A stretch of 64,000 bases of DNA from Mycteria americana (lineage: Eukaryota > Chordata > Aves > Ciconiiformes > Ciconiidae): contig NC_134366.1 in the NCBI RefSeq assembly GCF_035582795.1, forward strand, positions 136,734,756 through 136,798,755. Direction: 5' to 3'. Under the pieces are notes generated by a model that made no database searches, was not told the DNA's origin, and saw only the letters and a list, made by a program, of their open reading frames with translations. Positions 21,359 through 64,000 of the stretch are shown here, piece after piece (within the stretch, counting starts at the first letter, position 1; each line of letters starts with the position of its first letter). The position numbers were made by a program, and so were the translations under genes.

Positions 21359-21363
21359 GTAGT

Positions 21364-39224: not shown

Positions 39225-39318
39225 GATACAGCCCTGAATGCTCTCATCCACTGCGCACATGACGAGGTTGGGCCCCAGGCAAAGGGCACTATATCCAGGC
39301 AAGGGGAAAGAAAAAAGT

Positions 39319-39391
39319 TGGAGAATGAGGGCATTAATCCCGCTGCCTCTCACATGCGAAGCAAGCGCTCTACCACTTGAGCTAATTCCCC
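39319..39391 (-). tRNA. tRNA-Ala(CGC), edge copy, probably decaying
   Basis: Seventy-three bases with the same acceptor stem (GGGGAAT) and D arm as the other alanine copies, but the anticodon is CGC rather than AGC (A34C; bases 39358-39356). The T loop has C56T and G57A, which break the B box and the 19-56 tertiary pair, and base 64 is T so the C50-G64 pair is lost. A T6 run follows the gene. It is best read as a pseudogene or a poorly functional tRNA, although the cloverleaf outline remains. Confidence 0.7.
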
Positions 39392-39710
39392 AGCCCACGG
39401 CCTCTGCCTGAGGTCCCCTCCCCTCCCAGGCACCCACCCCTGACCCAGGATGCCCTGCACCCAAAGCCTGAGCCTCCCAACAGCCTCGCTCTCACACCCC
39501 CACCCACTCACCCACTCACCTTCCTGCTGGGGGTGACCCCTGACAACCTCGGTGCTCAGGACCACCATCCCCTGCCCAGGGTTCACCTGAAACTGCCTTG
39601 GCTGGTCTTCTCCCCACCTTAGGCAAGAGTTCAACGCTGGGCAGCCCTTGAAGGGGAGCCACCCGGGCAGGGCCAAAAGGCAGAGGTGCCGCAGGGTCTG
39701 GGCCAGAGCC

Positions 39711-39714
39711 AAAA
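39711..39714 (-). terminator. Pol III terminator after tRNA-Tyr (representative)
   Basis: AAAA on the plus strand is TTTT on the tRNA strand, close to the end of the gene (context GTGCCCTTTTGGC). The same run follows all 14 tRNA-Tyr genes. Confidence 0.8.
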
Positions 39715-39720
39715 GGGCAC

Positions 39721-39809
39721 TCCTTCGAGCCGGAGTTGAACCAGCGACCTAAGGATGGCCGTGCAAGGGAGCCTACAGTCCTCCGCTCTACCAGCTGAGC
39801 TATCGAAGG
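39721..39809 (-). tRNA. tRNA-Tyr(GTA) with 16-nt intron
   Basis: Decodes UAC/UAU. The 73-base mature part begins CCTTCGATAGCTCAG and folds into a complete cloverleaf: acceptor CCTTCGA/TCGAAGG, D stem GCTC/GAGC, anticodon stem GAGGA/TCCTT, T stem GCTGG/CCGGC, discriminator A. The anticodon GTA is followed by G37, then a 16-base intron (GCTCCCTTGCACGGCC), exactly at the canonical 37/38 position; all vertebrate tRNA-Tyr genes I know of carry such an intron. The internal A box and B box (GGTTCAACTCC) are intact. A TTTT Pol III terminator lies 8-11 bases past the 3' end. This is the reference copy; the other 13 look identical. Confidence 0.97.
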
Positions 39810-39996
39810 AATCATGGGATAGCATTGACACCTCCCGCCTCCATCACACGCTCATCCAACCATTCTGCTCTCACACCACTCCCGCATACCCGCATGACTC
39901 TCCTCAGCAGGAAGAAACACAGGCTTGCCTTACACCCGCATTGCCCACAACCTCTCAGGCCCACACCACCTGACCAGGGCAGACCCACCCGTGGTG

Positions 39997-40013
39997 GCTC
40001 GCTCCAAGCGAGC
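39997..40013. repeat. Perfect 7-bp inverted repeat in cassette X spacer
   Basis: GCTCGCT and AGCGAGC separated by CCA form a short stable hairpin on either strand. It recurs in every X cassette, for example at 43443-43459. No protein or RNA function is known to me for it. Confidence 0.7.
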
Positions 40014-40390
40014 GTCCAGAGCAGAACGTACAATCGTCATGGTGAGGAAGGGACAACTGCATGCCAGGAGGTCACTGCATAGGGCAGGGTGACGATCACG
40101 TCCAGTGAGTGCCAGGCAGGTCCAGACTGACAAGCCAGGGATGAAGTCAAGACAGAAGATCTGTCTGCACGTCAGCGTCTGTATCAAGGGTCACTGCGGC
40201 TGGACATCTCCGTGGCCGGGGCCATGGCTGAGCTAGAGACCAGGACTCCTAGCATGTAGCTCGGAAGGAGAGTGAAGGCCTAGGCAGGGCTGAACACACA
40301 TACAGCTCCTGGACCCATGGGTGGAGGTGGAGGCCCCACACGAGGCTGGTCAGGGCCAGTCAGGCCTATTAGGGCTCTCAGGGCCCGGAC

Positions 40391-40456
40391 GAGACGTAAG
40401 GGTAGCCATGCAAGGGAGCCTGCAGTCCTCTGCTCCACCAGCAGAGCTACTGATGG
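40391..40456 (-). pseudogene. Truncated tRNA-Tyr relic with GCA anticodon
   Basis: On the minus strand this aligns base for base with the tRNA-Tyr 5' half: CCATCAGTAGCTC against CCTTCGATAGCTC, then a D arm, the anticodon region ACTGCAG (GTA changed to GCA), a 16-base intron remnant differing at two positions, and the start of the 3' half. The T arm is largely deleted and the acceptor stem cannot close, so no tRNA can form. It is present once in each cassette X and so was amplified with the array. Confidence 0.85.
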
Positions 40457-40499
40457 ACTGGCAGGGCCCCCTCCCAGCTCTGCCTCCATGACAGAGCAG

Positions 40500-40885
40500 T
40501 CAAAGAAATCAGCTTGGATGAGACCTCAGGACATCTCTACTCAAACCTCCTCCAAGCAGCCTGAGCTTGGGGATCACAGCAGCTTGCTCAAAGCTTCATC
40601 CAGTCGGCTCGTGCCAGCCTCCAAGCATGGAGACTGCAGAGCACTCCGGGGCACCCTTCTTCTCCTGCCTGCCTGGCGTGAGGGGAGAACAAATTGAACC
40701 CGCCCTGCTTCAGTTGTGGGCCGTTGCTTCTCATGCCTCTGGCAATCACCACAGTAAAAGGCCTATACCTGTTGAATCAATAATCTCCTGACAGGCGTTG
40801 GAAAGCTGCTGCTTAGCTCCCCCAAAGCCCTCTCTTCTCCAGGCTCTGGACAAGCCCACATTCACTGACATCTCCTCACGGGGCA
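40500..40885 (-). mobile_element. Old CR1 fragment in cassette X
   Basis: Reverse-orientation CR1 coding sequence, recognised by 'cagcttggatgagacctcag', 'ctcaaagcttcatccag', 'catggagactgcagagc', 'ttctccaggctctggacaag' and similar family words with many differences. It was inserted before the amplification, because each X copy has it at the same offset (from about 43946, 47393, 50840, 54287, 57734, 59945 and 61816). Edges are approximate. Confidence 0.7.
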
Positions 40886-41182
40886 AATGCGCCTGCTCCC
40901 AACCGTCACGGTGGCCTTGTTCCGAGGTCACTGCACTTGGTCAACGTCTGTCTTCTACACAGAGGCCCGAAGCCGGCCGTGTTCTTCGAGATGCCATCAG
41001 TCAAGCGCTGAGTAAAGGTGCTGAGTAAAATCCCATCCCTCGATCCAGGGCCCGGGCTGCCCTTGGTGCAGCCCTGGATGCTGTCCTTTTCTGTGCGGCC
41101 CAGGTGCACCGCGAGCTCCCCACAGCCCCCAGAGAACAGAGGGCCCCAGGCAGAGGGCCCTGTGTCCCGGCAAGGGGAGTGA

Positions 41183-41186
41183 AAAG
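41183..41186 (-). terminator. Pol III terminator after tRNA-Ala (representative)
   Basis: The tRNA strand reads CCAATGCTTTTCAC, so a T4 run starts a few bases past the gene. It is conserved in every AGC copy. The edge copy at 39319 has a T6 run instead. Confidence 0.8.
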
Positions 41187-41189
41187 CAT

Positions 41190-41262
41190 TGGAGAATGCG
41201 GGCATCGATCCTGCTGCCTCTCGCATGCTAAGCGAGCGCTCTACCACTTGAGCTAATTCCCC
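41190..41262 (-). tRNA. tRNA-Ala(AGC), cassette X, T-stem intermediate
   Basis: Decodes GCU (and GCC after A34 deamination). The 73 bases begin GGGGAATTAGCTCAAG, with anticodon AGC, acceptor GGGGAAT/ATTCTCC and discriminator A. The T stem has A51 (base 41212) opposite C63 (base 41200), an A-C mismatch. Other X copies have A-T here and Y copies G-C. A TTTT terminator lies about 5 bases past the 3' end. Confidence 0.93.
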
Positions 41263-41591
41263 AGCCCACGGCCTCTGCCTGAGGTCCCCTCCCCTCCCAG
41301 GCACCCACCCCTGACCCAGGATGCCCTGCACCCAAAGCCTGAGCCTCCCAACAGCCTCGCTCTCACACCCCCACCCACTCACCCACTCACCTTCCTGCTG
41401 GGGGCGACCCCTGACAACCTCGGTGCTCAGGACCACCATCCCCTGCCCAGGGTTCACCTGAAACTGCCTTGGCTGGTCTTCTCCCCACCTTAGGCAAGAG
41501 TTCAACGCTGGGCAGCCCTTGAAGGGGAGCCACCCGGGCAGGGCCAAAAGGCAGAGGTGCCGCAGGGTCTGGGCCAGAGCCAAAAGGGCAC

Positions 41592-41680
41592 TCCTTCGAG
41601 CCGGAGTTGAACCAGCGACCTAAGGATGGCCGTGCAAGGGAGCCTACAGTCCTCCGCTCTACCAGCTGAGCTATCGAAGG
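41592..41680 (-). tRNA. tRNA-Tyr(GTA) with 16-nt intron, cassette Y
   Basis: Same 89-base gene as at 39721. It opens cassette Y and has the Y-type 5' flank (GGGGCCCTGCCCC on the plus strand just right of the gene). Confidence 0.96.
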
Positions 41681-41879
41681 AATCATGGGGCCCTGCCCCT
41701 TACCTCGCCCATCACACACTCATCCGACACTTCTCCACGCAAAGCGCAGAATGACGCCTCTACTCCAACACCATGCTTCAAACAGCCCCAGCTCCAACAT
41801 CACACCACCTTGCTCAACCCTTTAGCCCATCAAATCATGCAGACCCCCAAACAGAAGAACTCCACAGGCTCCCTGGACG

Positions 41880-42330
41880 TCATCTTCTACAGCTGCACTC
41901 TCCTCAGGGCCAAAAAAAGCTTACCCGTATCCACCTGCATTCATCTTGATCCAATTTCACTGTGCTGTCTTTTGCCCTCTGCTCAAGCACCAGACAAAAG
42001 GACAGCATTTCCTCTGCTCATTGACCGCCTCCTAAGTGCTGGAAGGTCCTGCGTAAGGCCTCTGAACTTCGCTTTCTCCAGGCTGAACATGCTCAGTGTC
42101 CTCAGCCCATCCTCACACAGAAACCCCTCCATTCCCTGAGCTTCGTGGTGGCCCTCCACTGAAGCGCCTCCACTTCATTCATGTCTCTCCTGTACAGGGG
42201 AGCTCACAGCTGGACACAGGACTTGAGATGACATTTGACGTCTGTCAAGCAAAGAGGGAGAAAAGAAGGTCCCCTGTTAAACTGCCCACGCTGCTCTTGT
42301 AACAACCCCAGGATGTTGTCCTACCCTTTG
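41880..42330 (-). mobile_element. Old CR1 fragment in cassette Y
   Basis: Reverse-orientation CR1 sequence, with cues 'cctcctaagtgctggaagg', 'tttctccaggctgaaca', 'ctcagcccatcctcacacag' and 'ggggagctcacagctggaca'. It is a different piece from the one in cassette X. Repeated in each Y at the same offset (from about 45326, 48773, 52220, 55667 and 63196). Boundaries are approximate. Confidence 0.75.
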
Positions 42331-42424
42331 CTGTCTGGGTGCACTGCGAGCTCCCCACAGCCCCCCAAAGGACACGGGCCCCAGGCAAAGGGCCCTGTGT
42401 CCCGGCAAGGGGAGTGAAAAGCAT

Positions 42425-42497
42425 TGGAGAATGCGGGCATCGATCCCGCTGCCTCTCACATGCTAAGCGAGCGCTCTACCACTTGAGCTAATTCCCC
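42425..42497 (-). tRNA. tRNA-Ala(AGC), cassette Y
   Basis: Reference Y-type alanine gene. It differs from the X type by a G51-C63 T-stem pair (T stem GCGGG/CCCGC) and by T40, giving a G30-T40 wobble in the anticodon stem. The B-box region reads GGATCGATGCC, as in the known vertebrate GGGGAATTAGC alanine tRNA family. TTTT follows the 3' end. Confidence 0.95.
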
Positions 42498-42649
42498 AGC
42501 CCACGGCCTCTGCCTGAGGTCCCCTCCCCTCCCAGGCACCCACCCCTGACCCAGGATGCCCTGCACCCAAAGCCTGCGCCTCCCATCGGCCTCGCTCTCA
42601 CACCCCCACCCACTCACCCACTCACTTTCCTGCTGGAGGCGACCCCTCT

Positions 42650-43130
42650 GACAAAACCAGAACTCAGGGTCAAGTCACTTGGGAGCCTGCGTGCAGCCCC
42701 ACCACCACGCGCATTTGGCTGTCGGAGCTCAGAAACAACTTGGAGCGTGTGCAAATGGTGGCCTTGCATGAAAATGCTACGAGAAGCCTGAGCAGGGGCC
42801 CGGCCCTCCTTGGCACGGGAGATGCTTTGAAGCTGAGCCTCTTGCCCTCGGTACCTTCCTGAGAACCGCTGGATCTGGCTTGCAGCTCTGCCTGTGCCTG
42901 CCCACGTTCCTCATTGATGCTGAGCCTGGCCATGACCCTTGGACTCAAGTAGCCTGCCTGAACTCCCACCGGCTTGAGCGGGGCCGTGGAGCTGCCTGTG
43001 CACCGCACGACTGCGACTGAAGCTTGTGCAGCCTTCCCAATTGGTCCCGAGCAGCCTTTTTGGCCTCAACCGCTCCCATCGGACCTCACAAGTGCCTCCT
43101 CAGCGTGACCTTTCCTGCTTAAGAGACAAA
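42650..43130. other. Cassette Y spacer, unrecognised
   Basis: About 480 bp between the tRNA-Ala flank and the next tRNA-Tyr, present only in cassette Y. The minus strand has a 112-codon frame (42670-43008), repeated unchanged in each Y. It has no domain I recognise, and array homogenisation alone would keep it intact. It could be an old unnamed transposon remnant. Confidence 0.4.
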
Positions 43131-43166
43131 GGTGCCGCAGGGTCTGGGCCAGAGCCAAAAGGGCAC

Positions 43167-43255
43167 TCCTTCGAGCCGGAGTTGAACCAGCGACCTAAGG
43201 ATGGCCGTGCAAGGGAGCCTACAGTCCTCCGCTCTACCAGCTGAGCTATCGAAGG
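43167..43255 (-). tRNA. tRNA-Tyr(GTA) with 16-nt intron, cassette X
   Basis: Identical to the reference gene. Y-type left flank (GACAAAGGTGCCGC) and X-type right flank (GGGATAGCATTGAC). Confidence 0.96.
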
Positions 43256-43836
43256 AATCATGGGATAGCATTGACACCTCCCGCCTCCATCACACGCTCA
43301 TCCAACCATTCTGCTCTCACACCACTCCCGCATACCCGCATGACTCTCCTCAGCAGGAAGAAACACAGGCTTGCCTTACACCCGCATTGCCCACAACCTC
43401 TCAGGCCCACACCACCTGACCAGGGCAGACCCACCCGTGGTGGCTCGCTCCAAGCGAGCGTCCAGAGCAGAACGTACAATCGTCATGGTGAGGAAGGGAC
43501 AACTGCATGCCAGGAGGTCACTGCATAGGGCAGGGTGACGATCACGTCCAGTGAGTGCCAGGCAGGTCCAGACTGACAAGCCAGGGATGAAGTCAAGACA
43601 GAAGATCTGTCTGCACGTCAGCGTCTGTATCAAGGGTCACTGCGGCTGGACATCTCCGTGGCCGGGGCCATGGCTGAGCTAGAGACCAGGACTCCTAGCA
43701 TGTAGCTCGGAAGGAGAGTGAAGGCCTAGGCAGGGCTGAACACACATACAGCTCCTGGACCCATGGGTGGAGGTGGAGGCCCCACACGAGGCTGGTCAGG
43801 GCCAGTCAGGCCTATTAGGGCTCTCAGGGCCCGGAC

Positions 43837-43902
43837 GAGACGTAAGGGTAGCCATGCAAGGGAGCCTGCAGTCCTCTGCTCCACCAGCAGAGCTACTGAT
43901 GG
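43837..43902 (-). pseudogene. tRNA-Tyr relic (GCA), unit 2
   Basis: Same truncated relic as at 40391-40456; no T arm. Confidence 0.83.
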
Positions 43903-44635
43903 ACTGGCAGGGCCCCCTCCCAGCTCTGCCTCCATGACAGAGCAGTCAAAGAAATCAGCTTGGATGAGACCTCAGGACATCTCTACTCAAACCTCCTCCA
44001 AGCAGCCTGAGCTTGGGGATCACAGCAGCTTGCTCAAAGCTTCATCCAGTCGGCTCGTGCCAGCCTCCAAGCATGGAGACTGCAGAGCACTCCGGGGCAC
44101 CCTTCTTCTCCTGCCTGCCTGGCGTGAGGGGAGAACAAATTGAACCCGCCCTGCTTCAGTTGTGGGCCGTTGCTTCTCATGCCTCTGGCAATCACCACAG
44201 TAAAAGGCCTATACCTGTTGAATCAATAATCTCCTGACAGGCGTTGGAAAGCTGCTGCTTAGCTCCCCCAAAGCCCTCTCTTCTCCAGGCTCTGGACAAG
44301 CCCACATTCACTGACATCTCCTCACGGGGCAAATGCGCCTGCTCCCAACCGTCACGGTGGCCTTGTTCCGAGGTCACTGCACTTGGTCAACGTCTGTCTT
44401 CTACACAGAGGCCCGAAGCCGGCCGTGTTCTTCGAGATGCCATCAGTCAAGCGCTGAGTAAAGGTGCTGAGTAAAATCCCATCCCTCGATCCAGGGCCCG
44501 GGCTGCCCTTGGTGCAGCCCTGGATGCTGTCCTTTTCTGTGCGGCCCAGGTGCACCGCGAGCTCCCCACAGCCCCCAGAGAACAGAGGGCCCCAGGCAGA
44601 GGGCCCTGTGTCCCGGCAAGGGGAGTGAAAAGCAT

Positions 44636-44708
44636 TGGAGAATGCAGGCATCGATCCTGCTGCCTCTCGCATGCTAAGCGAGCGCTCTACCACTTGAGCT
44701 AATTCCCC
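44636..44708 (-). tRNA. tRNA-Ala(AGC), cassette X
   Basis: X-type gene with T stem GCAGG/CCTGC, fully paired (A51-T63), and C40 pairing with G30. Confidence 0.95.
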
Positions 44709-45037
44709 AGCCCACGGCCTCTGCCTGAGGTCCCCTCCCCTCCCAGGCCCCCACCCCTGACCCAGGATGCCCTGCACCCAAAGCCTGAGCCTCCCAACAG
44801 CCTCGCTCTCACACCCCCACCCACTCACCCACTCACCTTCCTGCTGGGGGCGACCCCTGACAACCTCGGTGCTCAGGACCACCATCCCCTGCCCAGGGTT
44901 CACCTGAAACTGCCTTGGCTGGTCTTCTCCCCACCTTAGGCAAGAGTTCAACGCTGGGCAGCCCTTGAAGGGGAGCCACCCGGGCAGGGCCAAAAGGCAG
45001 AGGTGCCGCAGGGTCTGGGCCAGAGCCAAAAGGGCAC

Positions 45038-45126
45038 TCCTTCGAGCCGGAGTTGAACCAGCGACCTAAGGATGGCCGTGCAAGGGAGCCTACAGTCCTC
45101 CGCTCTACCAGCTGAGCTATCGAAGG
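45038..45126 (-). tRNA. tRNA-Tyr(GTA) with 16-nt intron, cassette Y
   Basis: Identical to the reference gene, with Y-type right flank. Confidence 0.96.
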
Positions 45127-45871
45127 AATCATGGGGCCCTGCCCCTTACCTCGCCCATCACACACTCATCCGACACTTCTCCACGCAAAGCGCAGAATGA
45201 CGCCTCTACTCCAACACCACGCTTCAAACAGCCCCAGCTCCAACATCACACCACCTTGCTCAACCCTTTAGCCCATCAAATCATGCAGACCCCCAAACAG
45301 AAGAACTCCAACAGGCTCCCTGGACGTCATCTTCTACAGCTGCACTCTCCTCAGGGCCAAAAAAAGCTTACCCGTATCCACCTGCATTCATCTTGATCCA
45401 ATTTCACTGTGCTGTCTTTTGCCCTCTGCTCAAGCACCAGACAAAAGGACAGCATTTCCTCTGCTCACTGACCGCCTCCTAAGTGCTGGAAGGTCCTGCG
45501 TAAGGCCTCTGAACTTCGCTTTCTCCAGGCTGAACATGCTCAGTGTCCTCAGCCCATCCTCACACAGAAACCCCTCCATTCCCTGAGCTTCGTGGTGGCC
45601 CTCCACTGAAGCGCCTCCACTTCATTCATGTCTCTCCTGTACAGGGGAGCTCACAGCTGGACACAGGACTTGAGATGACATTTGACGTCTGTCAAGCAAA
45701 GAGGGAGAAAAGAAGGTCCCCTGTTAAACTGCCCACGCTGCTCTTGTAACAACCCCAGGATGTTGTCCTACCCTTTGCTGTCTGGGTGCACTGCGAGCTC
45801 CCCACAGCCCCCCAAAGGACACGGGCCCCAGGCAAAGGGCCCTGTGTCCCGGCAAGGGGAGTGAAAAGCAT

Positions 45872-45944
45872 TGGAGAATGCGGGCATCGATCCCGCTGCC
45901 TCTCACATGCTAAGCGAGCGCTCTACCACTTGAGCTAATTCCCC
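45872..45944 (-). tRNA. tRNA-Ala(AGC), cassette Y
   Basis: Y-type gene (G51-C63, T40), as at 42425. Confidence 0.95.
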
Positions 45945-46613
45945 AGCCCACGGCCTCTGCCTGAGGTCCCCTCCCCTCCCAGGCACCCACCCCTGACCCA
46001 GGATGCCCTGCACCCAAAGCCTGCGCCTCCCATCGGCCTCGCTCTCACACCCCCACCCACTCACCCACTCACTTTCCTGCTGGAGGCGACCCCTCTGACA
46101 AAACCAGAACTCAGGGTCAAGTCACTTGGGAGCCTGCGTGCAGCCCCACCACCACGCGCATTTGGCTGTCGGAGCTCAGAAACAACTTGGAGCGTGTGCA
46201 AATGGTGGCCTTGCATGAAAATGCTACGAGAAGCCTGAGCAGGGGCCCGGCCCTCCTTGGCACGGGAGATGCTTTGAAGCTGAGCCTCTTGCCCTCGGTA
46301 CCTTCCTGAGAACCGCTGGATCTGGCTTGCAGCTCTGCCTGTGCCTGCCCACGTTCCTCATTGATGCTGAGCCTGGCCATGACCCTTGGACTCAAGTAGC
46401 CTGCCTGAACTCCCACCGGCTTGAGCGGGGCCGTGGAGCTGCCTGTGCACCGCACGACTGCGACTGAAGCTTGTGCAGCCTTCCCAATTGGTCCCGAGCA
46501 GCCTTTTTGGCCTCAACCGCTCCCATCGGACCTCACAAGTGCCTCCTCAGCGTGACCTTTCCTGCTTAAGAGACAAAGGTGCCGCAGGGTCTGGGCCAGA
46601 GCCAAAAGGGCAC

Positions 46614-46702
46614 TCCTTCGAGCCGGAGTTGAACCAGCGACCTAAGGATGGCCGTGCAAGGGAGCCTACAGTCCTCCGCTCTACCAGCTGAGCTATCGAA
46701 GG
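46614..46702 (-). tRNA. tRNA-Tyr(GTA) with 16-nt intron, cassette X
   Basis: Identical to the reference gene, intron included. Confidence 0.96.
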
Positions 46703-47283
46703 AATCATGGGATAGCATTGACACCTCCCGCCTCCATCACACGCTCATCCAACCATTCTGCTCTCACACCACTCCCGCATACCCGCATGACTCTCCTCAG
46801 CAGGAAGAAACACAGGCTTGCCTTACACCCGCATTGCCCACAACCTCTCAGGCCCACACCACCTGACCAGGGCAGACCCACCCGTGGTGGCTCGCTCCAA
46901 GCGAGCGTCCAGAGCAGAACGTACAATCGTCATGGTGAGGAAGGGACAACTGCATGCCAGGAGGTCACTGCATAGGGCAGGGTGACGATCACGTCCAGTG
47001 AGTGCCAGGCAGGTCCAGACTGACAAGCCAGGGATGAAGTCAAGACAGAAGATCTGTCTGCACGTCAGCGTCTGTATCAAGGGTCACTGCGGCTGGACAT
47101 CTCCGTGGCCGGGGCCATGGCTGAGCTAGAGACCAGGACTCCTAGCATGTAGCTCGGAAGGAGAGTGAAGGCCTAGGCAGGGCTGAACACACATACAGCT
47201 CCTGGACCCATGGGTGGAGGTGGAGGCCCCACACGAGGCTGGTCAGGGCCAGTCAGGCCTATTAGGGCTCTCAGGGCCCGGAC

Positions 47284-47349
47284 GAGACGTAAGGGTAGCC
47301 ATGCAAGGGAGCCTGCAGTCCTCTGCTCCACCAGCAGAGCTACTGATGG
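47284..47349 (-). pseudogene. tRNA-Tyr relic (GCA), unit 3
   Basis: Same truncated relic as at 40391-40456. Confidence 0.83.
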
Positions 47350-48082
47350 ACTGGCAGGGCCCCCTCCCAGCTCTGCCTCCATGACAGAGCAGTCAAAGAA
47401 ATCAGCTTGGATGAGACCTCAGGACATCTCTACTCAAACCTCCTCCAAGCAGCCTGAGCTTGGGGATCACAGCAGCTTGCTCAAAGCTTCATCCAGTCGG
47501 CTCGTGCCAGCCTCCAAGCATGGAGACTGCAGAGCACTCCGGGGCACCCTTCTTCTCCTGCCTGCCTGGCGTGAGGGGAGAACAAATTGAACCCGCCCTG
47601 CTTCAGTTGTGGGCCGTTGCTTCTCATGCCTCTGGCAATCACCACAGTAAAAGGCCTATACCTGTTGAATCAATAATCTCCTGACAGGCGTTGGAAAGCT
47701 GCTGCTTAGCTCCCCCAAAGCCCTCTCTTCTCCAGGCTCTGGACAAGCCCACATTCACTGACATCTCCTCACGGGGCAAATGCGCCTGCTCCCAACCGTC
47801 ACGGTGGCCTTGTTCCGAGGTCACTGCACTTGGTCAACGTCTGTCTTCTACACAGAGGCCCGAAGCCGGCCGTGTTCTTCGAGATGCCATCAGTCAAGCG
47901 CTGAGTAAAGGTGCTGAGTAAAATCCCATCCCTCGATCCAGGGCCCGGGCTGCCCTTGGTGCAGCCCTGGATGCTGTCCTTTTCTGTGCGGCCCAGGTGC
48001 ACCGCGAGCTCCCCACAGCCCCCAGAGAACAGAGGGCCCCAGGCAGAGGGCCCTGTGTCCCGGCAAGGGGAGTGAAAAGCAT

Positions 48083-48155
48083 TGGAGAATGCAGGCATCG
48101 ATCCTGCTGCCTCTCGCATGCTAAGCGAGCGCTCTACCACTTGAGCTAATTCCCC
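48083..48155 (-). tRNA. tRNA-Ala(AGC), cassette X
   Basis: X-type gene (A51-T63, C40). Confidence 0.95.
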
Positions 48156-48484
48156 AGCCCACGGCCTCTGCCTGAGGTCCCCTCCCCTCCCAGGCCCCCA
48201 CCCCTGACCCAGGATGCCCTGCACCCAAAGCCTGAGCCTCCCAACAGCCTCGCTCTCACACCCCCACCCACTCACCCACTCACCTTCCTGCTGGGGGCGA
48301 CCCCTGACAACCTCGGTGCTCAGGACCACCATCCCCTGCCCAGGGTTCACCTGAAACTGCCTTGGCTGGTCTTCTCCCCACCTTAGGCAAGAGTTCAACG
48401 CTGGGCAGCCCTTGAAGGGGAGCCACCCGGGCAGGGCCAAAAGGCAGAGGTGCCGCAGGGTCTGGGCCAGAGCCAAAAGGGCAC

Positions 48485-54243: not shown

Positions 54244-54976
54244 ACTGGCAGGGCCCCCTCCCAGCTCTGCCTCCATGACAGAGCAGTCAAAGAAATCAGC
54301 TTGGATGAGACCTCAGGACATCTCTACTCAAACCTCCTCCAAGCAGCCTGAGCTTGGGGATCACAGCAGCTTGCTCAAAGCTTCATCCAGTCGGCTCGTG
54401 CCAGCCTCCAAGCATGGAGACTGCAGAGCACTCCGGGGCACCCTTCTTCTCCTGCCTGCCTGGCGTGAGGGGAGAACAAATTGAACCCGCCCTGCTTCAG
54501 TTGTGGGCCGTTGCTTCTCATGCCTCTGGCAATCACCACAGTAAAAGGCCTATACCTGTTGAATCAATAATCTCCTGACAGGCGTTGGAAAGCTGCTGCT
54601 TAGCTCCCCCAAAGCCCTCTCTTCTCCAGGCTCTGGACAAGCCCACATTCACTGACATCTCCTCACGGGGCAAATGCGCCTGCTCCCAACCGTCACGGTG
54701 GCCTTGTTCCGAGGTCACTGCACTTGGTCAACGTCTGTCTTCTACACAGAGGCCCGAAGCCGGCCGTGTTCTTCGAGATGCCATCAGTCAAGCGCTGAGT
54801 AAAGGTGCTGAGTAAAATCCCATCCCTCGATCCAGGGCCCGGGCTGCCCTTGGTGCAGCCCTGGATGCTGTCCTTTTCTGTGCGGCCCAGGTGCACCGCG
54901 AGCTCCCCACAGCCCCCAGAGAACAGAGGGCCCCAGGCAGAGGGCCCTGTGTCCCGGCAAGGGGAGTGAAAAGCAT

Positions 54977-55049
54977 TGGAGAATGCAGGCATCGATCCTG
55001 CTGCCTCTCGCATGCTAAGCGAGCGCTCTACCACTTGAGCTAATTCCCC
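54977..55049 (-). tRNA. tRNA-Ala(AGC), cassette X
   Basis: X-type gene (A51-T63, C40). Confidence 0.95.
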
Positions 55050-55378
55050 AGCCCACGGCCTCTGCCTGAGGTCCCCTCCCCTCCCAGGCCCCCACCCCTG
55101 ACCCAGGATGCCCTGCACCCAAAGCCTGAGCCTCCCAACAGCCTCGCTCTCACACCCCCACCCACTCACCCACTCACCTTCCTGCTGGGGGCGACCCCTG
55201 ACAACCTCGGTGCTCAGGACCACCATCCCCTGCCCAGGGTTCACCTGAAACTGCCTTGGCTGGTCTTCTCCCCACCTTAGGCAAGAGTTCAACGCTGGGC
55301 AGCCCTTGAAGGGGAGCCACCCGGGCAGGGCCAAAAGGCAGAGGTGCCGCAGGGTCTGGGCCAGAGCCAAAAGGGCAC

Positions 55379-55467
55379 TCCTTCGAGCCGGAGTTGAACC
55401 AGCGACCTAAGGATGGCCGTGCAAGGGAGCCTACAGTCCTCCGCTCTACCAGCTGAGCTATCGAAGG
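55379..55467 (-). tRNA. tRNA-Tyr(GTA) with 16-nt intron, cassette Y
   Basis: Identical to the reference gene. Confidence 0.96.
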
Positions 55468-56212
55468 AATCATGGGGCCCTGCCCCTTACCTCGCCCATC
55501 ACACACTCATCCGACACTTCTCCACGCAAAGCGCAGAATGACGCCTCTACTCCAACACCACGCTTCAAACAGCCCCAGCTCCAACATCACACCACCTTGC
55601 TCAACCCTTTAGCCCATCAAATCATGCAGACCCCCAAACAGAAGAACTCCAACAGGCTCCCTGGACGTCATCTTCTACAGCTGCACTCTCCTCAGGGCCA
55701 AAAAAAGCTTACCCGTATCCACCTGCATTCATCTTGATCCAATTTCACTGTGCTGTCTTTTGCCCTCTGCTCAAGCACCAGACAAAAGGACAGCATTTCC
55801 TCTGCTCACTGACCGCCTCCTAAGTGCTGGAAGGTCCTGCGTAAGGCCTCTGAACTTCGCTTTCTCCAGGCTGAACATGCTCAGTGTCCTCAGCCCATCC
55901 TCACACAGAAACCCCTCCATTCCCTGAGCTTCGTGGTGGCCCTCCACTGAAGCGCCTCCACTTCATTCATGTCTCTCCTGTACAGGGGAGCTCACAGCTG
56001 GACACAGGACTTGAGATGACATTTGACGTCTGTCAAGCAAAGAGGGAGAAAAGAAGGTCCCCTGTTAAACTGCCCACGCTGCTCTTGTAACAACCCCAGG
56101 ATGTTGTCCTACCCTTTGCTGTCTGGGTGCACTGCGAGCTCCCCACAGCCCCCCAAAGGACACGGGCCCCAGGCAAAGGGCCCTGTGTCCCGGCAAGGGG
56201 AGTGAAAAGCAT

Positions 56213-56285
56213 TGGAGAATGCGGGCATCGATCCCGCTGCCTCTCACATGCTAAGCGAGCGCTCTACCACTTGAGCTAATTCCCC
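56213..56285 (-). tRNA. tRNA-Ala(AGC), cassette Y
   Basis: Y-type gene (G51-C63, T40). Confidence 0.95.
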
Positions 56286-56954
56286 AGCCCACGGCCTCTG
56301 CCTGAGGTCCCCTCCCCTCCCAGGCACCCACCCCTGACCCAGGATGCCCTGCACCCAAAGCCTGCGCCTCCCATCGGCCTCGCTCTCACACCCCCACCCA
56401 CTCACCCACTCACTTTCCTGCTGGAGGCGACCCCTCTGACAAAACCAGAACTCAGGGTCAAGTCACTTGGGAGCCTGCGTGCAGCCCCACCACCACGCGC
56501 ATTTGGCTGTCGGAGCTCAGAAACAACTTGGAGCGTGTGCAAATGGTGGCCTTGCATGAAAATGCTACGAGAAGCCTGAGCAGGGGCCCGGCCCTCCTTG
56601 GCACGGGAGATGCTTTGAAGCTGAGCCTCTTGCCCTCGGTACCTTCCTGAGAACCGCTGGATCTGGCTTGCAGCTCTGCCTGTGCCTGCCCACGTTCCTC
56701 ATTGATGCTGAGCCTGGCCATGACCCTTGGACTCAAGTAGCCTGCCTGAACTCCCACCGGCTTGAGCGGGGCCGTGGAGCTGCCTGTGCACCGCACGACT
56801 GCGACTGAAGCTTGTGCAGCCTTCCCAATTGGTCCCGAGCAGCCTTTTTGGCCTCAACCGCTCCCATCGGACCTCACAAGTGCCTCCTCAGCGTGACCTT
56901 TCCTGCTTAAGAGACAAAGGTGCCGCAGGGTCTGGGCCAGAGCCAAAAGGGCAC

Positions 56955-57043
56955 TCCTTCGAGCCGGAGTTGAACCAGCGACCTAAGGATGGCCGTGCAA
57001 GGGAGCCTACAGTCCTCCGCTCTACCAGCTGAGCTATCGAAGG
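56955..57043 (-). tRNA. tRNA-Tyr(GTA) with 16-nt intron, cassette X
   Basis: Identical to the reference gene. Confidence 0.96.
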
Positions 57044-57624
57044 AATCATGGGATAGCATTGACACCTCCCGCCTCCATCACACGCTCATCCAACCATTCT
57101 GCTCTCACACCACTCCCGCATACCCGCATGACTCTCCTCAGCAGGAAGAAACACAGGCTTGCCTTACACCCGCATTGCCCACAACCTCTCAGGCCCACAC
57201 CACCTGACCAGGGCAGACCCACCCGTGGTGGCTCGCTCCAAGCGAGCGTCCAGAGCAGAACGTACAATCGTCATGGTGAGGAAGGGACAACTGCATGCCA
57301 GGAGGTCACTGCATAGGGCAGGGTGACGATCACGTCCAGTGAGTGCCAGGCAGGTCCAGACTGACAAGCCAGGGATGAAGTCAAGACAGAAGATCTGTCT
57401 GCACGTCAGCGTCTGTATCAAGGGTCACTGCGGCTGGACATCTCCGTGGCCGGGGCCATGGCTGAGCTAGAGACCAGGACTCCTAGCATGTAGCTCGGAA
57501 GGAGAGTGAAGGCCTAGGCAGGGCTGAACACACATACAGCTCCTGGACCCATGGGTGGAGGTGGAGGCCCCACACGAGGCTGGTCAGGGCCAGTCAGGCC
57601 TATTAGGGCTCTCAGGGCCCGGAC

Positions 57625-57690
57625 GAGACGTAAGGGTAGCCATGCAAGGGAGCCTGCAGTCCTCTGCTCCACCAGCAGAGCTACTGATGG
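57625..57690 (-). pseudogene. tRNA-Tyr relic (GCA), unit 6
   Basis: Same truncated relic as at 40391-40456. Confidence 0.83.
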
Positions 57691-58423
57691 ACTGGCAGGG
57701 CCCCCTCCCAGCTCTGCCTCCATGACAGAGCAGTCAAAGAAATCAGCTTGGATGAGACCTCAGGACACCTCTACTCAAACCTCCTCCAAGCAGCCTGAGC
57801 TTGGGGATCACAGCAGCTTGCTCAAAGCTTCATCCAGTCGGCTCGTGCCAGCCTCCAAGCATGGAGACTGCAGAGCACTCCGGGGCACCCTTCTTCTCCT
57901 GCCTGCCTGGCGTGAGGGGAGAACAAATTGAACCCGCCCTGCTTCAGTTGTGGGCCGTTGCTTCTCATGCCTCTGGCAATCACCACAGTAAAAGGCCTAT
58001 ACCTGTTGAATCAATAATCTCCTGACAGGCGTTGGAAAGCTGCTGCTTAGCTCCCCCAAAGCCCTCTCTTCTCCAGGCTCTGGACAAGCCCACATTCACT
58101 GACATCTCCTCACGGGGCAAATGCGCCTGCTCCCAACCGTCACGGTGGCCTTGTTCCGAGGTCACTGCACTTGGTCAACGTCTGTCTTCTACACAGAGGC
58201 CCGAAGCCGGCCGTGTTCTTCGAGATGCCATCAGTCAAGCGCTGAGTAAAGGTGCTGAGTAAAATCCCATCCCTCGATCCAGGGCCCGGGCTGCCCTTGG
58301 TGCAGCCCTGGATGCTGTCCTTTTCTGTGCGGCCCAGGTGCACCGCGAGCTCCCCACAGCCCCCAGAGAACAGAGGGCCCCAGGCAGAGGGCCCTGTGTC
58401 CCGGCAAGGGGAGTGAAAAGCAT

Positions 58424-58496
58424 TGGAGAATGCGGGCATCGATCCCGCTGCCTCTCACATGCTAAGCGAGCGCTCTACCACTTGAGCTAATTCCCC
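58424..58496 (-). tRNA. tRNA-Ala(AGC) at the X/Y recombination junction
   Basis: Gene body is Y type (G51-C63, T40) but the sequence to its left on the plus strand is X type (AGAGAACAGAGGG, CAGGCAGAGG). The last X-specific base is 58387 and the first Y-specific base 58434, so the exchange lies in or just beside the 3' end of this gene. The tRNA itself remains intact. Confidence 0.94.
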
Positions 58497-59165
58497 AGCC
58501 CACGGCCTCTGCCTGAGGTCCCCTCCCCTCCCAGGCACCCACCCCTGACCCAGGATGCCCTGCACCCAAAGCCTGCGCCTCCCATCGGCCTCGCTCTCAC
58601 ACCCCCACCCACTCACCCACTCACTTTCCTGCTGGAGGCGACCCCTCTGACAAAACCAGAACTCAGGGTCAAGTCACTTGGGAGCCTGCGTGCAGCCCCA
58701 CCACCACGCGCATTTGGCTGTCGGAGCTCAGAAACAACTTGGAGCGTGTGCAAATGGTGGCCTTGCATGAAAATGCTACGAGAAGCCTGAGCAGGGGCCC
58801 GGCCCTCCTTGGCACGGGAGATGCTTTGAAGCTGAGCCTCTTGCCCTCGGTACCTTCCTGAGAACCGCTGGATCTGGCTTGCAGCTCTGCCTGTGCCTGC
58901 CCACGTTCCTCATTGATGCTGAGCCTGGCCATGACCCTTGGACTCAAGTAGCCTGCCTGAACTCCCACCGGCTTGAGCGGGGCCGTGGAGCTGCCTGTGC
59001 ACCGCACGACTGCGACTGAAGCTTGTGCAGCCTTCCCAATTGGTCCCGAGCAGCCTTTTTGGCCTCAACCGCTCCCATCGGACCTCACAAGTGCCTCCTC
59101 AGCGTGACCTTTCCTGCTTAAGAGACAAAGGTGCCGCAGGGTCTGGGCCAGAGCCAAAAGGGCAC

Positions 59166-59254
59166 TCCTTCGAGCCGGAGTTGAACCAGCGACCTAAGGA
59201 TGGCCGTGCAAGGGAGCCTACAGTCCTCCGCTCTACCAGCTGAGCTATCGAAGG
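59166..59254 (-). tRNA. tRNA-Tyr(GTA) with 16-nt intron, cassette X
   Basis: Identical to the reference gene. Confidence 0.96.
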
Positions 59255-59835
59255 AATCATGGGATAGCATTGACACCTCCCGCCTCCATCACACGCTCAT
59301 CCAACCATTCTGCTCTCACACCACTCCCGCATACCCGCATGACTCTCCTCAGCAGGAAGAAACACAGGCTTGCCTTACACCCGCATTGCCCACAACCTCT
59401 CAGGCCCACACCACCTGACCAGGGCAGACCCACCCGTGGTGGCTCGCTCCAAGCGAGCGTCCAGAGCAGAACGTACAATCGTCATGGTGAGGAAGGGACA
59501 ACTGCATGCCAGGAGGTCACTGCATAGGGCAGGGTGACGATCACGTCCAGTGAGTGCCAGGCAGGTCCAGACTGACAAGCCAGGGATGAAGTCAAGACAG
59601 AAGATCTGTCTGCACGTCAGCGTCTGTATCAAGGGTCACTGCGGCTGGACATCTCCGTGGCCGGGGCCATGGCTGAGCTAGAGACCAGGACTCCTAGCAT
59701 GTAGCTCGGAAGGAGAGTGAAGGCCTAGGCAGGGCTGAACACACATACAGCTCCTGGACCCATGGGTGGAGGTGGAGGCCCCACACGAGGCTGGTCAGGG
59801 CCAGTCAGGCCTATTAGGGCTCTCAGGGCCCGGAC

Positions 59836-59901
59836 GAGACGTAAGGGTAGCCATGCAAGGGAGCCTGCAGTCCTCTGCTCCACCAGCAGAGCTACTGATG
59901 G
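59836..59901 (-). pseudogene. tRNA-Tyr relic (GCA), unit 7
   Basis: Same truncated relic as at 40391-40456. Confidence 0.83.
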
Positions 59902-60634
59902 ACTGGCAGGGCCCCCTCCCAGCTCTGCCTCCATGACAGAGCAGTCAAAGAAATCAGCTTGGATGAGACCTCAGGACATCTCTACTCAAACCTCCTCCAA
60001 GCAGCCTGAGCTTGGGGATCACAGCAGCTTGCTCAAAGCTTCATCCAGTCGGCTCGTGCCAGCCTCCAAGCATGGAGACTGCAGAGCACTCCGGGGCACC
60101 CTTCTTCTCCTGCCTGCCTGGCGTGAGGGGAGAACAAATTGAACCCGCCCTGCTTCAGTTGTGGGCCGTTGCTTCTCATGCCTCTGGCAATCACCACAGT
60201 AAAAGGCCTATACCTGTTGAATCAATAATCTCCTGACAGGCGTTGGAAAGCTGCTGCTTAGCTCCCCCAAAGCCCTCTCTTCTCCAGGCTCTGGACAAGC
60301 CCACATTCACTGACATCTCCTCACGGGGCAAATGCGCCTGCTCCCAACCGTCACGGTGGCCTTGTTCCGAGGTCACTGCACTTGGTCAACGTCTGTCTTC
60401 TACACAGAGGCCCGAAGCCGGCCGTGTTCTTCGAGATGCCATCAGTCAAGCGCTGAGTAAAGGTGCTGAGTAAAATCCCATCCCTCGATCCAGGGCCCGG
60501 GCTGCCCTTGGTGCAGCCCTGGATGCTGTCCTTTTCTGTGCGGCCCAGGTGCACCGCGAGCTCCCCACAGCCCCCAGAGAACAGAGGGCCCCAGGCAGAG
60601 GGCCCTGTGTCCCGGCAAGGGGAGTGAAAAGCAT

Positions 60635-60707
60635 TGGAGAATGCAGGCATCGATCCTGCTGCCTCTCGCATGCTAAGCGAGCGCTCTACCACTTGAGCTA
60701 ATTCCCC
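60635..60707 (-). tRNA. tRNA-Ala(AGC), cassette X
   Basis: X-type gene (A51-T63, C40). Confidence 0.95.
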
Positions 60708-61036
60708 AGCCCACGGCCTCTGCCTGAGGTCCCCTCCCCTCCCAGGCCCCCACCCCTGACCCAGGATGCCCTGCACCCAAAGCCTGAGCCTCCCAACAGC
60801 CTCGCTCTCACACCCCCACCCACTCACCCACTCACCTTCCTGCTGGGGGCGACCCCTGACAACCTCGGTGCTCAGGACCACCATCCCCTGCCCAGGGTTC
60901 ACCTGAAACTGCCTTGGCTGGTCTTCTCCCCACCTTAGGCAAGAGTTCAACGCTGGGCAGCCCTTGAAGGGGAGCCACCCGGGCAGGGCCAAAAGGCAGA
61001 GGTGCCGCAGGGTCTGGGCCAGAGCCAAAAGGGCAC

Positions 61037-61125
61037 TCCTTCGAGCCGGAGTTGAACCAGCGACCTAAGGATGGCCGTGCAAGGGAGCCTACAGTCCTCC
61101 GCTCTACCAGCTGAGCTATCGAAGG
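61037..61125 (-). tRNA. tRNA-Tyr(GTA) at an X/X recombination junction
   Basis: Gene identical to the reference. The left flank is the type normally seen before a Y tRNA-Tyr (GGCAGAGGTGCC), while the right flank is the X type (GGGATAGC), so exchange occurred between 61000 and 61134, across this gene. Confidence 0.95.
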
Positions 61126-61706
61126 AATCATGGGATAGCATTGACACCTCCCGCCTCCATCACACACTCATCCAACCATTCTGCTCTCACACCACTCCCG
61201 CATACCCGCATGACTCTCCTCAGCAGGAAGAAACACAGGCTTGCCTTACACCCGCATTGCCCACAACCTCTCAGGCCCACACCACCTGACCAGGGCAGAC
61301 CCACCCGTGGTGGCTCGCTCCAAGCGAGCGTCCAGAGCAGAACGTACAATCGTCATGGTGAGGAAGGGACAACTGCATGCCAGGAGGTCACTGCATAGGG
61401 CAGGGTGACGATCACGTCCAGTGAGTGCCAGGCAGGTCCAGACTGACAAGCCAGGGATGAAGTCAAGACAGAAGATCTGTCTGCACGTCAGCGTCTGTAT
61501 CAAGGGTCACTGCGGCTGGACATCTCCGTGGCCGGGGCCATGGCTGAGCTAGAGACCAGGACTCCTAGCATGTAGCTCGGAAGGAGAGTGAAGGCCTAGG
61601 CAGGGCTGAACACACATACAGCTCCTGGACCCATGGGTGGAGGTGGAGGCCCCACACGAGGCTGGTCAGGGCCAGTCAGGCCTATTAGGGCTCTCAGGGC
61701 CCGGAC

Positions 61707-61772
61707 GAGACGTAAGGGTAGCCATGCAAGGGAGCCTGCAGTCCTCTGCTCCACCAGCAGAGCTACTGATGG
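61707..61772 (-). pseudogene. tRNA-Tyr relic (GCA), unit 8
   Basis: Same truncated relic as at 40391-40456. Confidence 0.83.
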
Positions 61773-62505
61773 ACTGGCAGGGCCCCCTCCCAGCTCTGCC
61801 TCCATGACAGAGCAGTCAAAGAAATCAGCTTGGATGAGACCTCAGGACACCTCTACTCAAACCTCCTCCAAGCAGCCTGAGCTTGGGGATCACAGCAGCT
61901 TGCTCAAAGCTTCATCCAGTCGGCTCGTGCCAGCCTCCAAGCATGGAGACTGCAGAGCACTCCGGGGCACCCTTCTTCTCCTGCCTGCCTGGCGTGAGGG
62001 GAGAACAAATTGAACCCGCCCTGCTTCAGTTGTGGGCCGTTGCTTCTCATGCCTCTGGCAATCACCACAGTAAAAGGCCTATACCTGTTGAATCAATAAT
62101 CTCCTGACAGGCGTTGGAAAGCTGCTGCTTAGCTCCCCCAAAGCCCTCTCTTCTCCAGGCTCTGGACAAGCCCACATTCACTGACATCTCCTCACGGGGC
62201 AAATGCGCCTGCTCCCAACCGTCACGGTGGCCTTGTTCCGAGGTCACTGCACTTGGTCAACGTCTGTCTTCTACACAGAGGCCCGAAGCCGGCCGTGTTC
62301 TTCGAGATGCCATCAGTCAAGCGCTGAGTAAAGGTGCTGAGTAAAATCCCATCCCTCGATCCAGGGCCCGGGCTGCCCTTGGTGCAGCCCTGGATGCTGT
62401 CCTTTTCTGTGCGGCCCAGGTGCACCGCGAGCTCCCCACAGCCCCCAGAGAACAGAGGGCCCCAGGCAGAGGGCCCTGTGTCCCGGCAAGGGGAGTGAAA
62501 AGCAT

Positions 62506-62578
62506 TGGAGAATGCAGGCATCGATCCTGCTGCCTCTCGCATGCTAAGCGAGCGCTCTACCACTTGAGCTAATTCCCC
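62506..62578 (-). tRNA. tRNA-Ala(AGC), cassette X
   Basis: X-type gene (A51-T63, C40). Confidence 0.95.
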
Positions 62579-62907
62579 AGCCCACGGCCTCTGCCTGAGG
62601 TCCCCTCCCCTCCCAGGCCCCCACCCCTGACCCAGGATGCCCTGCACCCAAAGCCTGAGCCTCCCAACAGCCTCGCTCTCACACCCCCACCCACTCACCC
62701 ACTCACCTTCCTGCTGGGGGCGACCCCTGACAACCTCGGTGCTCAGGACCACCATCCCCTGCCCAGGGTTCACCTGAAACTGCCTTGGCTGGTCTTCTCC
62801 CCACCTTAGGCAAGAGTTCAACGCTGGGCAGCCCTTGAAGGGGAGCCACCCGGGCAGGGCCAAAAGGCAGAGGTGCCGCAGGGTCTGGGCCAGAGCCAAA
62901 AGGGCAC

Positions 62908-62996
62908 TCCTTCGAGCCGGAGTTGAACCAGCGACCTAAGGATGGCCGTGCAAGGGAGCCTACAGTCCTCCGCTCTACCAGCTGAGCTATCGAAGG
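62908..62996 (-). tRNA. tRNA-Tyr(GTA) with 16-nt intron, cassette Y
   Basis: Identical to the reference gene. Confidence 0.96.
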
Positions 62997-63741
62997 AATC
63001 ATGGGGCCCTGCCCCTTACCTCGCCCATCACACACTCATCCGACACTTCTCCACGCAAAGCGCAGAATGACGCCTCTACTCCAACACCACGCTTCAAACA
63101 GCCCCAGCTCCAACATCACACCACCTTGCTCAACCCTTTAGCCCATCAAATCATGCAGACCCCCAAACAGAAGAACTCCAACAGGCTCCCTGGACGTCAT
63201 CTTCTACAGCTGCACTCTCCTCAGGGCCAAAAAAAGCTTACCCGTATCCACCTGCATTCATCTTGATCCAATTTCACTGTGCTGTCTTTTGCCCTCTGCT
63301 CAAGCACCAGACAAAAGGACAGCATTTCCTCTGCTCACTGACCGCCTCCTAAGTGCTGGAAGGTCCTGCGTAAGGCCTCTGAACTTCGCTTTCTCCAGGC
63401 TGAACATGCTCAGTGTCCTCAGCCCATCCTCACACAGAAACCCCTCCATTCCCTGAGCTTCGTGGTGGCCCTCCACTGAAGCGCCTCCACTTCATTCATG
63501 TCTCTCCTGTACAGGGGAGCTCACAGCTGGACACAGGACTTGAGATGACATTTGACGTCTGTCAAGCAAAGAGGGAGAAAAGAAGGTCCCCTGTTAAACT
63601 GCCCACGCTGCTCTTGTAACAACCCCAGGATGTTGTCCTACCCTTTGCTGTCTGGGTGCACTGCGAGCTCCCCACAGCCCCCCAAAGGACACGGGCCCCA
63701 GGCAAAGGGCCCTGTGTCCCGGCAAGGGGAGTGAAAAGCAT

Positions 63742-63814
63742 TGGAGAATGCGGGCATCGATCCCGCTGCCTCTCACATGCTAAGCGAGCGCTCTACCACT
63801 TGAGCTAATTCCCC
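63742..63814 (-). tRNA. tRNA-Ala(AGC), cassette Y
   Basis: Y-type gene (G51-C63, T40), the last tRNA before the window ends. Confidence 0.95.
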
Positions 63815-64000
63815 AGCCCACGGCCTCTGCCTGAGGTCCCCTCCCCTCCCAGGCACCCACCCCTGACCCAGGATGCCCTGCACCCAAAGCCTGCGCCTCC
63901 CATCGGCCTCGCTCTCACACCCCCACCCACTCACCCACTCACTTTCCTGCTGGAGGCGACCCCTCTGACAAAACCAGAACTCAGGGTCAAGTCACTTGGG

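Follow-up and report, generated by a model that had tools for sequence, protein, structure and literature searches.

How does a tandem array of tRNA genes arise and persist in a bird genome, and what would it be kept for? This question is raised by a locus in the 64,000-nucleotide stretch of Mycteria americana DNA analysed here (the window), which contains no N. In this study, we show that the array is built of composite units, that the junctions of its shortened units can be placed, that a uniform core is bordered by a decayed edge, and that most of its tRNA genes are intact and followed by T runs. We think it fairly probable that the array grew by local amplification of a small Tyr/Ala cluster and was then shaped by unequal exchange at the tRNA genes, with a uniform interior and a decaying edge as the outcome.

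Gene content of the array

ARAGORN predicted 28 tRNA genes between 39,720 and 63,815 (14 Tyr-GTA and 14 Ala-AGC), all 28 on the minus strand, and an Rfam scan of the whole window returned the same 28 together with a degenerate tRNA-Ala at 39,319-39,391 (Table 1). All 29 Rfam matches in the window are tRNA genes lying inside the array, each passes the gathering score, and in each a run of at least four T begins no more than 6 nt from the annotated end. An earlier note on this DNA had described 14 intron-containing tRNA-Tyr(GTA) and 15 tRNA-Ala genes, standing head to tail on one strand and equipped with terminators, and both programs and the T runs bear this out. Its further statement that the genes are intact is correct for most of them; however, the edge Ala gene is degenerate, and one T-stem pair of the Ala gene at 41,189 is an A-C mismatch. 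Judged by Rfam score and by eye, all 14 Tyr genes and 13 of the 15 Ala genes are free of defects. The A and B boxes were assessed by eye only, and the genes look Pol III-competent. The array reaches from about 39,229, a start placed by eye (BLAST similarity to the unit begins at 39,270), to the end of the window and continues beyond it, about seven unit lengths being visible.

A vertebrate tandem tDNA array can be recognized by head-to-tail repeats on one strand with at least two different tRNA genes per unit, by high identity among the units, and by genes that match the tRNA model with a T run behind each, and all of this is found here. The sequence supports the reading as a tandem tDNA array of rDNA-like form in which most genes are intact.

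The tRNA-Ala genes fall mainly into two types, Ala-C and Ala-T, which differ by a paired change preserving a T-stem pair and by an anticodon-stem change from G-C to G-U. All three differences are CpG transitions, so the paired T-stem change could be two deaminations. Minimum-energy folds of Ala-C and Ala-T are cloverleaves; those of the Tyr gene (with or without its intron), the 41189 Ala gene and the edge Ala gene are not, and the Tyr assignment therefore rests on the Rfam match. A reading of the copies as a tRNA-derived SINE was rejected, given that all 29 Rfam tRNA matches lie within the array, the spacers are fixed and the copies are not dispersed.

Table 1. Positions of the array components and of the flanking frame (numbering of the window)
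Feature	Position	Strand	Basis or remark
Putative PDE7A exon 1: 46-codon frame ending in a splice donor	12395..12532	-	Within CpG island 12000-14000
Array edge containing a degenerate tRNA-Ala (39319-39391; anticodon read by eye as CGC)	39229..39719	-	Rfam 41.1 bits
Five regular composite units (3446, then 4 x 3447 bp)	39720..56953	-	Self-comparison, unit alignment
2211-bp unit without Ala-C/Tyr-b part	56954..59164	-	Read as unequal exchange; switch from C to T version within 58388-58433
1871-bp unit without Ala-T part	59165..61035	-	Read as unequal exchange; switch within 61000-61134
Further regular unit, first 2965 bp, cut by window end	61036..64000	-	2 differences in 2965
tRNA-Tyr(GTA), intron read as 16 nt, 14 identical copies	43166..43256 (one copy)	-	ARAGORN, Rfam
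Other 13 tRNA-Tyr (starts)	39720, 41591, 45037, 46613, 48484, 50060, 51931, 53507, 55378, 56954, 59165, 61036, 62907	-	
tRNA-Ala(AGC), Ala-C type, 6 copies	44635..44709; others start 48082, 51529, 54976, 60634, 62505	-	ARAGORN
tRNA-Ala(AGC), Ala-T type, 7 copies	45871..45945; others start 42424, 49318, 52765, 56212, 58423, 63741	-	ARAGORN
tRNA-Ala between C and T types, T-stem A-C mismatch	41189..41263	-	
tRNA-Tyr relic in the longest spacer, unit positions 674-730	43839..43895	-	86% over 57 bp to Tyr gene, same orientation
Retrotransposon-like fragment in spacer, unit positions 2355-2635	45520..45800	-	63% to reverse strand of 16833-17112, E 2.6e-21

Composite units, junctions and edge

In a self-comparison of the window over lags of 300-12,000, the strongest lag was 3,447 bp. 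The unit of this length is composite and holds, in plus-strand order, Tyr-a, Ala-C, Tyr-b and Ala-T, as well as an old Tyr relic that Rfam did not report at E up to 1 and a retrotransposon-like fragment that we take to be CR1. Within one unit the two Ala blocks (342 aligned bp) are 92.4% identical and the two Tyr blocks (144 bp) 97.9%, which points to an older duplication. The 3,447-bp period given in the earlier note holds for five units, the first being 3,446 bp, but not for the 2,211-bp and 1,871-bp units that come next. The 2,211-bp unit has its junction within 46 bp at the 3' end of an Ala gene, and the 1,871-bp unit has its own within 135 bp that include the Tyr gene 61036-61126, so that both short units change version within the duplicated Ala/Tyr blocks. 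It seems that the array has been reshaped by unequal exchange at the tRNA genes, which would be the maker of these junctions. At unit positions 131 and 815, variants occur in all four combinations among the eight units.

The regular units are 99.86-100% identical (99.86% between the first and the unit at 43166, and 99.94-100% for the three later ones). A list of variable sites in the core, compiled by hand from the unit alignment with switch differences excluded, holds eight unit positions, of which one lies inside a gene, and the genes make up 332 of the 3,447 bp. With so few variable sites, the intactness of the core genes is no evidence of selection, and we rejected their identity as proof of it; near-identity of the core probably reflects homogenisation and is not proof of function. 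Unit position 131 is part of a CpG, and two separate mutations may have occurred there.

At the edge, decay is concentrated in the part up to 39363: compared with the C-type sequence, 39270-39363 differs at 18 of 94 positions, but 39364-39818 at only 2 of 455. The edge Ala gene differs from Ala-C at 8 of 75 positions and from Ala-T at 5. Between the two halves of a unit, with two gap columns omitted, 3 of 166 positions differ in the tRNA genes, compared with 24 of 318 in the flanks (Fisher p = 0.011). However, the flank differences are 15/116 downstream of Ala, 6/149 upstream of Ala and 3/53 for Tyr; the contrast stems from the downstream Ala flank, which makes the case for constraint a weak one.

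Left flank and proposed origin

In human, two tRNA-Tyr genes and one tRNA-Ala gene stand upstream of TRIM55, and PDE7A lies beyond DNAJC5B. In the window, a frame about 27 kb from the array has a translation beginning MEVCYQLPVL, presumably the N-terminus known from human PDE7A; this string had no match in the text of the open-licence literature. A euchromatic locus is plausible in view of the CpG island around this putative exon, about 25 kb from the array. For the gene between them, a crude motif test (HPD[KR] or CCCC, for DNAJC5B) gave nothing in six frames of the window, and the human order PDE7A-DNAJC5B-tRNA is therefore not reproduced. The patterns of this test, for a J-domain, a cysteine string and also a RING finger, would be expected if DNAJC5B or TRIM55 stood in the flank, and none of them had a match. 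Pfam returned no family in any of 18 frame segments covering 1-39,502 in six frames (E up to 0.01 for some scans and up to 0.1 for others), a search that had no positive control and so does not show that genes are absent from the flank, and a search of solved structures with one frame of 13,001-27,998 had no match at E up to 1. On human chromosome 8, three tRNA genes are placed upstream of TRIM55, with DNAJC5B as the next gene, in the available part of one account (PMC13025873). That cluster has three genes and forms no array, whereas here DNAJC5B was not found between the putative PDE7A and the array. Nevertheless, the array may have arisen where it stands, by amplification of an ancient amniote cluster of Tyr and Ala genes orthologous to the human one.

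In the origin that we propose, a small Tyr/Ala cluster, possibly the one upstream of TRIM55 in human, would have been the starting point. A Tyr-Ala block would have duplicated first and its two halves diverged, and the diverged pair would next have been amplified as a single 3.45-kb composite unit. Unequal exchange between copies, and probably gene conversion too, would rely on the homology of the tRNA genes and of the flanks they share, alter unit size and hold the interior uniform, leaving the edge to decay. At least some copies would be transcribed by Pol III, and the array would supply extra Tyr and Ala tRNA gene dosage, possibly restricted to certain stages as in Xenopus. A bolder version, which we regard as unlikely, is that an old Tyr/Ala cluster became an rDNA-like, recombination-maintained array supplying Tyr and Ala tRNA during development (in the germ line or the early embryo), so that a bird would have arrived independently at an equivalent of the oocyte tDNA of Xenopus.

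Rival readings and known arrays

It is very unlikely that an assembler multiplied a few real units, even though three units (starting at 43166, 46613 and 53507) match each other exactly through 3,447 bp. Simple copying would hardly yield mosaic units whose junctions fall in shared blocks, together with variants common to non-adjacent units and a diverged edge, and the window is free of N. tRNA genes can serve as chromatin boundaries, and GC content leaps from 0.36 to 0.55 between neighbouring 1-kb bins at about 39 kb, a change in composition only; that the array is mainly a TFIIIC-bound insulator beside its neighbours is nonetheless highly improbable. In human, an enhancer beyond the tRNA genes has been suggested to act on TRIM55 regardless (PMC13025873), and so many genes would not be needed for a boundary.

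More serious, though in our judgement somewhat doubtful, is the possibility that the array is a mostly silent satellite that spread as unequal exchange drifted and sees little use in most tissues, its tRNA genes being homogenised passengers. Homogenisation alone accounts for the identity of the core, and the unit spacers are poor in CpG (observed/expected 0.37) with TpG/CpA at 1.385, as after germline methylation; however, CpG depletion is milder there than in the flanks (0.20-0.26) and least in the four genes of a unit (0.74-0.88). Large tRNA clusters are near-completely methylated in zebrafish embryos (PMC11574265), and the Arabidopsis SYY (Ser-Tyr-Tyr) cluster is silenced in most tissues, yet SYY tRNAs are made in root cap cells despite methylation (PMC12308677). 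The near absence of defects among the array genes also speaks against a silent satellite, as does, weakly, the smaller number of between-half differences in genes than in flanks.

Local amplification with continued exchange, the reading that we prefer, makes the Mycteria array a further case of a known type, the tandem tDNA array, with an unusually readable history. The oocyte-type tDNA of Xenopus laevis likewise consists of repeats of a few kb, arranged head to tail, each with several kinds of tRNA gene; its unit of about 3.18 kb holds eight tRNA genes for more amino acids, Tyr and Ala included, whereas the Mycteria array has only Tyr and Ala, in a two-half composite unit. For the size of the Xenopus unit (about 3.2 kb in the earlier note), no account was found among the open-licence papers listed. 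Xenopus, named in that note as the known vertebrate parallel, is not the only one, because chromosome 4 of zebrafish carries clusters with 5,227 tRNA genes (PMC11574265). The zebrafish clusters on chromosomes 4, 8 and 3 resemble the array in being large vertebrate tRNA gene clusters (PMC11574265; PMC11075544), but comprise thousands of genes, mostly in a heterochromatic region of chromosome 4, against two isotypes in view here, and their authors concluded that tRNA levels are not mirrored by gene number (PMC11574265), a point that bears on the suggestion of the earlier note that the array could furnish much of the Tyr and Ala tRNA pool. Arabidopsis SYY, as far as the available part of its description goes, shares tandem units with two Tyr genes each, a core dominated by one sequence and edges that vary and include pseudogenes (PMC12308677); it differs in being a plant Ser/Tyr cluster, mostly silenced and presumably of independent origin. 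Entamoeba histolytica, a protist, also has tandem tRNA gene units, and in the accessible text of a 2010 survey it is the only organism with known tRNA tandem repeats (PMC2888827). Among the open-licence matches listed, no title reports a tandem tRNA array in a bird, which is not proof of absence in print, although several, such as PMC6993614 (on circular DNA in pigeon), PMC7144075 and PMC7116210, contain related words. The available parts of PMC4378963, PMC9858662 and PMC13169703 have no tandem array of this kind, and PMC8007984 and PMC5607496 contain none of the terms looked for.

This single stretch still records an old duplication and how it was amplified, together with exchanges that altered the size of units and an edge that has decayed. 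It is thus a good test case for whether tRNA gene arrays are retained for the dosage they give or simply carried along by recombination, and also for the developmental time at which they are used. Repeats like these are likely to have been missed by short-read assemblies. Transcripts of the array could be distinguished by the sequence differences between Ala-C and Ala-T.

Gene content and the composite unit

Of the 28 tRNA genes that ARAGORN identified in the window, 14 are Tyr(GTA) and 14 are Ala(AGC); the minus strand carries them all. Rfam located an additional degenerate tRNA-Ala. All 29 Rfam tRNA matches were above the gathering score, and no RNA family other than tRNA exceeded that score in the window. 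In each of the 29 genes a run of at least four T begins no more than 6 nt from the annotated end. The tRNA-Tyr genes are identical in 14 of 14 copies, including an intron read as 16 nt, and the 15 tRNA-Ala genes comprise seven of the T type, six of the C type, one intermediate and one degenerate. By eye, the A and B boxes look normal except for an A in the Tyr T loop, where G is the usual base.

The 3,447-bp unit carries, in plus-strand order, Tyr-a, Ala-C, Tyr-b, Ala-T and the next Tyr-a, with successive start-to-start distances of 1,469, 402, 834 and 742 bp. Because the two Ala regions of one unit match each other (92.4% identity, 342 aligned bp), as do its two Tyr regions (97.9% over 144 bp, the Tyr gene proper being identical), the unit appears to be a duplication whose copies diverged and which was later amplified whole, in the manner of higher-order satellite repeats. 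The longest spacer holds a further Tyr relic (86% over 57 bp), and two spacer stretches are 61-63% identical to a retrotransposon-like remnant in the flank. We take this remnant to be CR1, and a bird host is suspected for that reason. The GC content is 59% in the array (39720-64000) versus 40% at 14-39 kb; GC-biased gene conversion could be the source of the high value.

Features of the window and their coordinates
Feature	Position	Strand	Remarks
CpG island	12000-14000		GC 0.74; CpG observed/expected 0.91
PDE7A-like frame	12395-12532	minus	46 codons; splice donor at its end
Open frame	16693-17388		231 codons; resembles C-terminal end of retrotransposon protein
Retrotransposon-like remnant	16.8-17.2 kb
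DNA similar to 231-codon frame	near 29.6-29.8 kb		opposite orientation to that frame
Minisatellite-like DNA	31560-33656		39- and 45-bp repeats, diverged longer repeats
Degenerate edge tRNA-Ala	39,319-39,391		anticodon CGC, not AGC
28 tRNA genes	39,720-63,815	minus
Five regular units	39,720-56,953
2,211-bp unit	56,954-59,164		Ala-C version at left, Ala-T version at right
C-to-T switch	within 58,388-58,433		last 11 Ala-gene bases and 3' flank
1,871-bp unit	59,165-61,035
Switch of 1,871-bp unit	within 61,000-61,134		includes entire Tyr gene
Partial unit	61,036-64,000		2,965 bp of regular unit

Uniformity and probable exchange between units

With the unit starting at 43,166 as reference, the first and last of the three later regular units show no difference and the middle one shows two, while the first unit of the array has four differing positions plus one gap. 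At the outer edge, differences affect 18 of 94 positions as far as 39,363, a point within the terminal Ala gene, versus just 2 of 455 past it; homogenisation seems to end inside this gene. The edge gene joins the worn part to the core-like part. Likewise, the Arabidopsis SYY cluster is described, in an excerpt of PMC12308677, as having one predominant core sequence and worn, pseudogene-rich edges.

Both short-unit junctions match the products that would be expected from unequal exchange at shared blocks. The first unit already has a T-like base at unit position 1481, and if the parent resembled that unit, the switch in the 2,211-bp unit could be located as much as 12 bases deeper. Moreover, eight units between them show every one of the four possible combinations of the variants at unit positions 131 and 815, which suggests exchange between units; position 131 lies in a CpG and may instead have mutated twice. 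The most economical account would be in-place amplification of a small Tyr/Ala cluster, with exchange at the tRNA genes keeping the array uniform and Pol III probably transcribing at least some of its copies. The array may also matter as tRNA gene dosage.

Possible constraint and CpG content

Variation in the core is limited to eight unit positions (compiled by hand, switch differences left out), one of them genic, and the genes occupy 332 of 3,447 bp; therefore, the intactness of the core says nothing about selection. Between the two diverged Tyr-Ala halves of the unit, 3 of 166 gene positions differ versus 24 of 318 in the flanks, excluding two gap columns (Fisher p = 0.011), and the flank differences are uneven (downstream of Ala 15/116, upstream of Ala 6/149, beside Tyr 3/53). 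Ala-C and Ala-T are separated by a paired change preserving a T-stem pair and by G-C to G-U in the anticodon stem; because all three differences are CpG transitions, these changes are weak evidence for constraint. The four genes have a CpG observed/expected ratio of 0.74-0.88 and a TpG/CpA value of 0.73-1.20; the corresponding figures are 0.37 and 1.385 for the spacers, and 0.20-0.26 and 1.21-1.25 for the flanks. The spacers were likely methylated in the past; for the genes this is less probable.

Neighbourhood, possible orthology and predicted use

Upstream of the PDE7A-like frame, 26.7 kb separate its start codon from the beginning of the array. We take the 46 residues of this frame to be the same as the human PDE7A N-terminus, and the minus side of the CpG island is read as PDE7A. 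At this island the sign of the AT skew flips, and broadly that of the GC skew does too, as at a two-way promoter. The genes sought in the flank were chosen with a view to the human tRNA cluster upstream of TRIM55, which we assume to be Tyr, Tyr, Ala, with PDE7A presumably located beyond DNAJC5B; motifs of DNAJC5B and TRIM55 were sought in the window and neither was found, whereas the PDE7A-like frame was. An excerpt of PMC13025873 places three broadly expressed tRNA genes upstream of TRIM55 on human chromosome 8 and names DNAJC5B as the gene that follows upstream. Orthology of the array to this cluster is attractive but unproved, because the gene order here does not demonstrably match the human one.

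Tandem tDNA arrays are of a kind already known; as far as the literature was searched, the new elements are a probably avian host, a composite unit with two isotypes, and junctions that can be read. Tandem tRNA genes specific to the oocyte are switched on in Xenopus at zygotic genome activation (excerpt of a commentary, PMC11500080). In zebrafish embryos, methylation of the big tRNA clusters is near-complete, and tRNA levels do not follow gene number (excerpt of PMC11574265); as of 2024 it had not been established whether the tRNA genes on zebrafish chromosome 4 are maternal (excerpt of PMC11075544). The human tRNA-Tyr-GTA-5 genes, identical in sequence, have different flanks and unequal activity (excerpt of PMC10791582), and since the 5' flanks of Tyr-a and Tyr-b also differ, the activity of these two genes may differ likewise.

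The flank also contains the 231-codon open frame, presumably of CR1 type, as well as the similar DNA in opposite orientation and the minisatellite-like stretch.
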